The position numbers and the translations under genes were made by a program. DNA of 38,949 nucleotides. Origin: Alphaproteobacteria bacterium MarineAlpha9_Bin3 (lineage in GTDB: Bacteria; Pseudomonadota; Alphaproteobacteria; TMED109). The notes under the pieces were generated by a model. That model was not told the DNA's origin, made no database searches, and worked only from the letters and a program-made list of their open reading frames with translations. Positions 4,322 to 5,944 of the stretch are shown here, one piece after another. The stretch spans positions 1 through 38,949 of the forward strand of contig PTKH01000015.1 in the NCBI GenBank assembly GCA_002937655.1. The letters run 5' to 3'. The first letter of the stretch is position 1; every line of letters begins with the position of its first letter.

Positions 4322-5221
4322 TTGGGGAGAAATAATATTAATTATTTTAAATCAATAATATCTATATTTTTTATAATATTTTTTTGTAAATTGGCTTTAA
4401 CTGAAGAATATATTAGTACAGCAAAGCAAATAATTGGTGAGTATTTAATTGGTGGTATTGAGAATAATACTCCTGATTTTATTAAAACTTTAGATATAGA
4501 ATATATTCATTCTGATGATTATGATTCCACTTTCTCTTTAAATGCAGTCTCTTCTATTTATGAAGGAGATACAGATGTATTTTTTAATCAAACTAGTGTC
4601 TATCAACATGACGGTAACACAACTTTGAATACAGGTTTAGCGTATAGAAATTTATTTAGTGATAAAAAAATTATATTTGGAGTCAATGCATTTTATGATC
4701 GAGAAATTAAAGTTACTCATCAAAGGGTAGGTTTAGGTGTAGAATTGTTAACTTCGGTTTTTGACTTGAGAAGTAATATTTATGAATCTTTTTCTAAGAC
4801 TAAACTAGTTGAGTCAAATAACACTGAAAAAGCATTAGATGGATGGGATTTGAGAGGCGATTATCATTTACCTTCTTCTATAGTAGATGATTACAGAGTA
4901 TCTTTATTTACATCTTATTATGATTGGTCTGAAAGTGGAGGAGATTTTTCTTCAGATGGTTATAAAATTGGATTTACAGGAAGACCGTACAAAAATTTAT
5001 TTTTAGAAGCCGCAATAGATGATGATGGTTCAAGCAATAAGGATTTTTACTTTTTACTGAACTATTCTTTAAAGTTGTATGAATCTAATAACGAATTAAC
5101 AGTAAATTCTGGTAACTTTGAATTACAAAATGTGGAACATAGAATGTATGAAAAAGTAATCAGAGAAAATAGAATTGTTAAAGTAGTAAAAGGCGCTGTT
5201 AAAGTTAAGAGGGGAAATTAG
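4322..5221 (+). CDS. Stand-alone inverse autotransporter (intimin/invasin-type) beta-barrel protein
   Basis: After a signal peptide (about residues 8-27) the protein matches the inverse-autotransporter beta domain. The diagnostic segments appear in order: FGVNAFYDREIKVTHQRVG (about 119-137), LGVEL, ALDGWDLRGDYHLPS (about 171-185), GYKIGFTGRPYKNLFLEAAID (about 213-233), and the closing EHRMYEKVIRENRIVKV that in intimins precedes the linker to the passenger. Here the protein ends about 15 residues later, so there is no Ig-like passenger. It should sit in the outer membrane. The stop codon touches the ATG of the next gene, implying translational coupling. The start is unclear: TTG 4322 overlaps the strong GGGGAGA (4324-4330), so that Shine-Dalgarno better serves an ATT at 4337 (6-nt spacing, 294 residues). 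There is no in-frame ATG nearby. Confidence 0.8.
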   Translation: MGRNNINYFKSIISIFFIIFFCKLALTEEYISTAKQIIGEYLIGGIENNTPDFIKTLDIEYIHSDDYDSTFSLNAVSSIYEGDTDVFFNQTSVYQHDGNTTLNTGLAYRNLFSDKKIIFGVNAFYDREIKVTHQRVGLGVELLTSVFDLRSNIYESFSKTKLVESNNTEKALDGWDLRGDYHLPSSIVDDYRVSLFTSYYDWSESGGDFSSDGYKIGFTGRPYKNLFLEAAIDDDGSSNKDFYFLLNYSLKLYESNNELTVNSGNFELQNVEHRMYEKVIRENRIVKVVKGAVKVKRGN

Positions 5222-5944
5222 ATGAATATAAAAAAATTATTTTATATTATAAGTATAATTTTTACATTTTTTATAATTCCTAAGATGGTTTTTTCTCAGA
5301 CATTTGATACACCAGAGGTATATATAGTTACCGTAAATAGTATGGATCTATGTGAAGATGCTGCCTGTGCAAAATATGTTCGATTAGGCGCAATTTCTAA
5401 GTCTTTTGATATAGCTTCAGCAGCAGCTGCAGGCGATGTGGGAACGTATGTTGAGGAAATTGCATTAGAAGTTGGTAAATCTTACACACATGCAAGATGG
5501 AATTTAAATAGAGCTATGACTGTTAAGGGAGGAGCTTCTGTTGGAGGAGGGGTTACATGCTCTACTGCGGCAAATGGAACAGCAGGAACTGAAACTGTCG
5601 CCGCTTATACGGCAGGTGACCAAACAGAAGCAAACTTAGCTCTTTTTATGGTTGATTTAGGAAAATTAGCAAATAGTGGAGGCCCAGTTGCTTCTGATTA
5701 TACCTCAAAAGGAGTCCAATTAGTTAGTAATGATTTTCCATCCGCAACTACTTTTGATTATATTAAAGAATTAACTTCTACTTATACAGTGACTGAAGAA
5801 GTTCCAGTTATATCAATGTCTTTCAATGTTACAGATAATTTAGGTATAGGTTATAATAATTCTGGTTCGGCTTCAAATGGGGTTCCGAATAATAACTGTT
5901 ATTATTGGGTTGAAGATCCTTCACCAATAATTTCTATTAAATAA
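5222..5944 (+). CDS. Secreted protein of unknown function, partner of the beta-barrel
   Basis: Not assigned to a named family. The 240-residue protein has a clear signal peptide with likely cleavage after VFS (about residue 25). The mature part is rich in Thr, Ser, Ala and Gly and in short beta-type stretches (EVYIVTVNSMDL, TYTVTEEVPVISMSFNV). Four cysteines, a close pair (44 and 49), one after a GGG run (about 115) and one near the C-terminus, suggest disulfides outside the cytoplasm. It has no membrane segment after the signal and no LPXTG, lipobox or autotransporter barrel of its own. Its ATG directly follows the stop of the inverse-autotransporter barrel gene, with AGGGGA just upstream, so the two are surely co-expressed. 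Inference: a surface or matrix protein that uses, or is displayed by, the barrel. Confidence 0.65.
   Translation: MNIKKLFYIISIIFTFFIIPKMVFSQTFDTPEVYIVTVNSMDLCEDAACAKYVRLGAISKSFDIASAAAAGDVGTYVEEIALEVGKSYTHARWNLNRAMTVKGGASVGGGVTCSTAANGTAGTETVAAYTAGDQTEANLALFMVDLGKLANSGGPVASDYTSKGVQLVSNDFPSATTFDYIKELTSTYTVTEEVPVISMSFNVTDNLGIGYNNSGSASNGVPNNNCYYWVEDPSPIISIK

Follow-up and report, generated by a model that had tools for sequence, protein, structure and literature searches.

A passenger-less inverse-autotransporter barrel gene and an adjoining gene for a separate exported protein, conserved as a pair in Alphaproteobacteria

Two adjoining genes and their junction

The stretch of DNA analysed here (referred to as 'the window', and comprising 38,949 nucleotides in all) contains two open reading frames on its forward strand that lie exactly where the original prediction had placed them, the first (299 amino acids) at positions 4322-5221 and the second (240 amino acids) at 5222-5944, starting at the very next base. 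The features of the locus are as follows.

4322-5221, forward strand: passenger-less inverse-autotransporter barrel protein, 299 amino acids, TTG start (PF11924, phmmer, Foldseek)
4322-4405, forward strand: likely signal peptide of the Sec type on the barrel protein, from residue 1 to roughly residue 28 (hydrophobic N-terminus, judged by eye)
4487-5077, forward strand: 12 predicted barrel strands, residues 56-252 (AlphaFold2 model, pTM 0.50, two-sequence alignment)
5156-5218, forward strand: C-terminal tail of the barrel, with a V-x-R-x-N-x-I motif and a short strand-like end, at the site where a passenger usually starts
5208-5214, forward strand: AGAGGGG, a Shine-Dalgarno-like sequence for the partner gene, within the barrel gene's final codons (read directly; 11 pair junctions)
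5222-5944, forward strand: separately exported partner protein, 240 amino acids, ATG start, cysteines at 44, 49, 113 and 226 (no known family)
5222-5299, forward strand: likely signal peptide of the Sec type on the partner, from residue 1 to roughly residue 26 (hydrophobic N-terminus, judged by eye; helix at 3-24 in the model)

The first protein matches the Pfam inverse-autotransporter beta domain (PF11924, IAT_beta) across residues 69-283, above the curated cutoff and with an E-value of 4.7e-28; the match covers profile positions 61-279 of 279 and thus reaches the last position of the profile, beyond which the chain continues for just 16 residues (284-299). In phmmer searches of the PDB the protein retrieved invasin (4e1t, 1.1e-9) and intimin (4e1s, 0.0042), and an AlphaFold2 model built from two sequences, of modest confidence (mean pLDDT 49.9, pTM 0.50), displayed 12 barrel strands and found its best PDB matches, using Foldseek, among the intimin and invasin barrels 4e1s (4.5e-8), 5g26 and 4e1t. 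The same passenger-less ending is present in the paired relatives of this barrel, and within the tail V279, R281 and N283 are invariant across 19 non-redundant barrels (below 70% identity). The protein is an intimin/invasin-type barrel that lacks a passenger, as had been predicted from its early stop after the domain. The listed TTG start is preceded by a weak Shine-Dalgarno sequence, and an in-frame ATT at 4337, following GGGGAG at 4324-4329, offers an alternative.

The stop codon of the barrel gene (TAG, 5219-5221) is directly followed, in the same frame, by the ATG of the partner gene; across 11 pairs the corresponding gaps measure approximately 0 to 38 nucleotides, and scans for promoters and terminators returned nothing above chance. 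The second protein was predicted to carry an N-terminal signal and four cysteines and to lack an anchor, and this is evident in its sequence, in which the hydrophobic N-terminal signal is accompanied by neither a lipobox cysteine nor a C-terminal anchor. Even cysteine numbers prevail: of 41 partners, 37 have 4, 6 or 8. Searches of Pfam, NCBIfam and the PDB with the window partner and its relatives gave no significant match, and its pairing with the barrel provides a context for a protein family that is named in no library tested. A fold prediction for the partner, again from a two-sequence alignment, reached a pLDDT of 30 and was unusable.

Distribution, subtypes and inheritance of the pair

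A close copy of the pair, with the same neighbours, was found in PAYS01000027.1 (Candidatus Pelagibacterales bacterium SP94). A class-wide search identified inverse-autotransporter domains in 44 of 385 genomes, and most of the barrels of approximately 280-365 amino acids had, immediately downstream, a gene encoding an exported protein; short barrels lacking a recognised partner were found at two loci (L023 and L033). A profile of the partner matched 10 of the same 385 genomes, with a barrel adjoining in all ten, a count that is non-independent because nine of those genomes, together with the window, had supplied the profile.

An independent test was provided by the 136 genomes of the order that includes G404, among which only G238 and G404 had contributed profile sequences. 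Partner matches were found in 40 of these genomes and PF11924 in 43 (47 barrels in total), with a profile-detected partner beside 41 of the 47 barrels (38 downstream, 3 upstream); about a third of the genomes in this one order have the pair. For five further barrels an adjoining exported gene was found by inspection. A divergent yet significant partner lies downstream of the barrel in G848 and G765 and upstream of it in G849 (contig 10), and in G824 and G859 the downstream exported proteins belong to a separate subtype and are related to each other. The last of the 47 barrels (G862, contig 84) has a contig that terminates just upstream of it. Partners occurring without a barrel, which had been named in advance as a potential refutation, amounted to four matches in this order, all of them at contig ends.

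Across all searches, the pairs belong to eight families of Alphaproteobacteria. A wider draw of 349 genomes from the phylum yielded the window as its only match, so that the partner family is patchy in distribution. No fusion of barrel and partner was seen among the loci examined, and no relatives were found on viral contigs or plasmids. The two-gene arrangement is thus conserved, beyond chance, in dozens of loci. The original prediction of a coupled pair conserved in order held for the adjacency, and mostly for the succession of barrel and then partner, but a few loci place the partner first; in three such loci (L113, L136 and L137) the barrel tails close with a sequence of the LG(V/L) type. 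Barrels fused to passengers, also named beforehand as evidence against the proposal, do exist in the class (such as L017, with a Big_5 domain), although the partner profile was matched only beside passenger-less barrels. At one locus in another genus of the window's family, an open reading frame with a long Gly-Asp dipeptide repeat (L007, 2463-3008, reverse strand) lies downstream of a 495-amino-acid inverse autotransporter.

The neighbourhoods of the pairs vary between genomes, which fits a self-contained unit. One genome of the window's own genus (G003; L116, contig 8) has the same neighbours, an epimerase and a cupin gene, but has lost the barrel and the greater part of the partner from between them; a scar of approximately 35-44 codons from the 3' end of the partner gene is all that persists, indicating that the barrel-partner unit can be lost.

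The partners divide into subtypes, whose relationships were examined through profiles of restricted composition. A model of the L018 and L020 partners alone retrieved the window partner (E 1.3e-20), and a model of the window and L010 partners retrieved that of L020 (9.4e-16). Profile comparison linked the window group to the other main partner group with a probability of 93% (E 3.6e-7), whereas the window and L010 alone, compared with that same group, gave a probability of 10%, which is not significant. In G859, the barrel chain carries an OmpA domain (PF00691, 8.4e-19) ahead of the barrel and no passenger, and a gene 121 nucleotides downstream encodes a protein of 695 amino acids with a Lectin_C domain (24.7 bits, cutoff 22.6) and a Big_2 match just under its cutoff (22.3 bits against 22.8). 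An OmpA-type peptidoglycan-binding domain fused ahead of an inverse-autotransporter barrel was observed at L110 (3080-5230, reverse strand). The C-terminal domain of the 695-residue protein shares 38% identity (8e-79) with the protein that stands alone beside the G824 barrel. Domains of the lectin and Ig-like kinds classically make up the passengers of intimin and invasin (PMC6714894), and in G859 they are carried on a separate chain, in trans. Homology of this lectin-bearing subtype to the window partner was sought and rejected as not significant (hhalign probability 1-2%), and the G859/G824 subtype is tied to that of the window by position only.

Distances among barrels and among their partners are correlated (r 0.82, Mantel p 2e-4, 19 non-redundant pairs): barrel and partner are inherited as a unit. 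Purifying selection acts on both genes, with dN/dS values between the window and L010 of 0.08 for the partner and 0.36 for the barrel, alongside 0.2-0.36 for neighbouring genes where computable. Between the same two loci the partner (window 5222-5944, L010 2046-2765) is 88% identical, against 50-67% for the other five genes compared; such identity, at a synonymous divergence like that of the barrel, is unusual for a surface protein. Recent transfer was considered as its cause and was rejected, given a dS of 0.89 against 0.95 in the barrel. In pairs other than these two, conservation is usually lower in the partner than in the barrel.

The type of barrel tail tracks the type of partner, a correspondence that can be explained by co-inheritance alone. 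Many tails finish in a glycine-rich stretch that overlaps the Shine-Dalgarno site of the partner gene, so that tail conservation is partly explained by translation and, taken alone, argues only weakly for docking. The partner-first loci, in which the tail needs to supply no Shine-Dalgarno site, nonetheless retain a short tail, which favours a role for its protein sequence.

Proposed export and display of the partner

Inverse autotransporters have been studied almost only in enterobacteria, and the route by which their passengers cross the outer membrane is still debated. The recurrence of the pair side by side in many Alphaproteobacteria suggests that the adhesin part has been turned into a second protein, and we propose, as a reading with about an even chance of being correct, that the pair constitutes an inverse autotransporter split into two genes, in which the barrel aids the export of the partner and then displays it at the cell surface. 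Both proteins would be carried across the inner membrane by Sec, and the barrel inserted by BAM, with its C-terminal tail placed, as in intimin, within the lumen; the disulfide-rich partner would then be exported through or with the barrel and held by it at the surface, probably via the strand-like tail. The displayed partner would correspond to the adhesive or ligand-binding part that belongs to the same chain in other inverse autotransporters. It is possible, although on balance doubtful, that the pairs form a distinct subclass of type V secretion, defined by a passenger-less barrel, a short tail that acts as a docking strand, and an interchangeable partner that brings adhesin domains in trans. 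A barrel and a passenger part that exist as two proteins would allow the two steps to be separated experimentally.

A rather unlikely alternative holds that the barrel acts as a translocator and lets the partner go into the medium as a free exoprotein, unanchored at the surface, exactly as in the ZirT-ZirS system. ZirS is found in culture supernatants in a ZirT-dependent manner, with the same dependence of its secretion on ZirT in E. coli (PMC2270342), and the window partner has no anchor of its own; two arguments, both weak, run the other way, namely that the lectin and Ig-like content of the G859 protein better matches a surface-held adhesin, and that the correspondence between tail and partner types suggests lasting contact. 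Retention of the partner in the periplasm, as a plug, chaperone or assembly factor of a pore-like barrel, is improbable: it would accord with a partner that bears a Sec-type signal only, and with a barrel that lacks any passenger it could itself display, but the lectin and Ig-like domains in G859 point outward, as does the precedent of ZirS. That the two genes are mere neighbours with no functional link is very improbable; the link between them is drawn from genomic data rather than from direct interaction, but their adjacency is kept across different gene neighbourhoods, no partner was found without a barrel save at contig ends, and both were lost together in G003. Finally, the idea that a stop codon or sequencing error has broken up one long inverse-autotransporter gene (splitting by such an error was a refutation anticipated by the original prediction, and the second gene does follow in frame after a single TAG) is refuted by the conservation of the arrangement, as well as by the partner's own signal peptide and Shine-Dalgarno site, the differing stops (TAA, TAG, TGA) and frames of other pairs, and the purifying selection on both genes noted above.

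Split export and display is the preferred reading, and the earlier interpretation as a whole is partly supported.

Relation to known systems

The claim that known inverse autotransporters always carry their passenger in the same chain, which accompanied the original prediction, does not hold, because ZirT-ZirS (PMC2270342) and SinH-SinI / IatB (PMC6714894; NF040711) have separate partners. ZirT and ZirS (with ZirU) of Salmonella enterica resemble the window pair in combining an intimin/invasin-type barrel with a separate partner, bearing a Sec signal (a probable one in the window), encoded directly downstream (PMC2270342), but ZirT comprises 660 amino acids and has been described with an IgSF passenger (PMC6714894), whereas the window barrel carries no passenger. 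As of 2008, ZirS was without homologues beyond Salmonella. A search of PDB chains with the partner profile gave no relevant match.

SinH-SinI / IatB (NF033423, NF040711; PMC6714894) likewise pairs an inverse autotransporter with an associated protein that is encoded after it and exported separately, but SinH has a long passenger (724 amino acids in all). No similarity between E. coli SinI and the partner was detected by hmmsearch or hhalign, and NF040711 matched none of the partners tested, so that by these tests the alphaproteobacterial partner is not a member of the SinI family. Intimin and invasin (type Ve) share with the window protein a PF11924 barrel in which the last strand is followed by the V-x-R-x-N-x-I segment, and differ in carrying Ig and lectin domains in the chain, where the window barrel has only its 16 terminal residues. 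Two-partner secretion (type Vb, as in FhaC-FhaB) is similar in encoding translocator and exported protein as two genes, but relies on an Omp85/POTRA barrel and a TPS domain; the window barrel is of another family, and a Pfam search of the pair found no Omp85/POTRA or TPS domain, with IAT_beta alone in the barrel and nothing significant in the partner.

A literature search, outside which most subscription journals lay, found no earlier account of the alphaproteobacterial pair. Because the known barrels keep their passengers and E. coli SinI is, by the searches above, unrelated in sequence to the partner, the pair represents a variant of the known layout of inverse autotransporter and separate partner: the principle of such a barrel with a separate partner is already known, and it is in the passenger-less barrel and, as far as the comparison with SinI indicates, in the partner family that the alphaproteobacterial pair differs.
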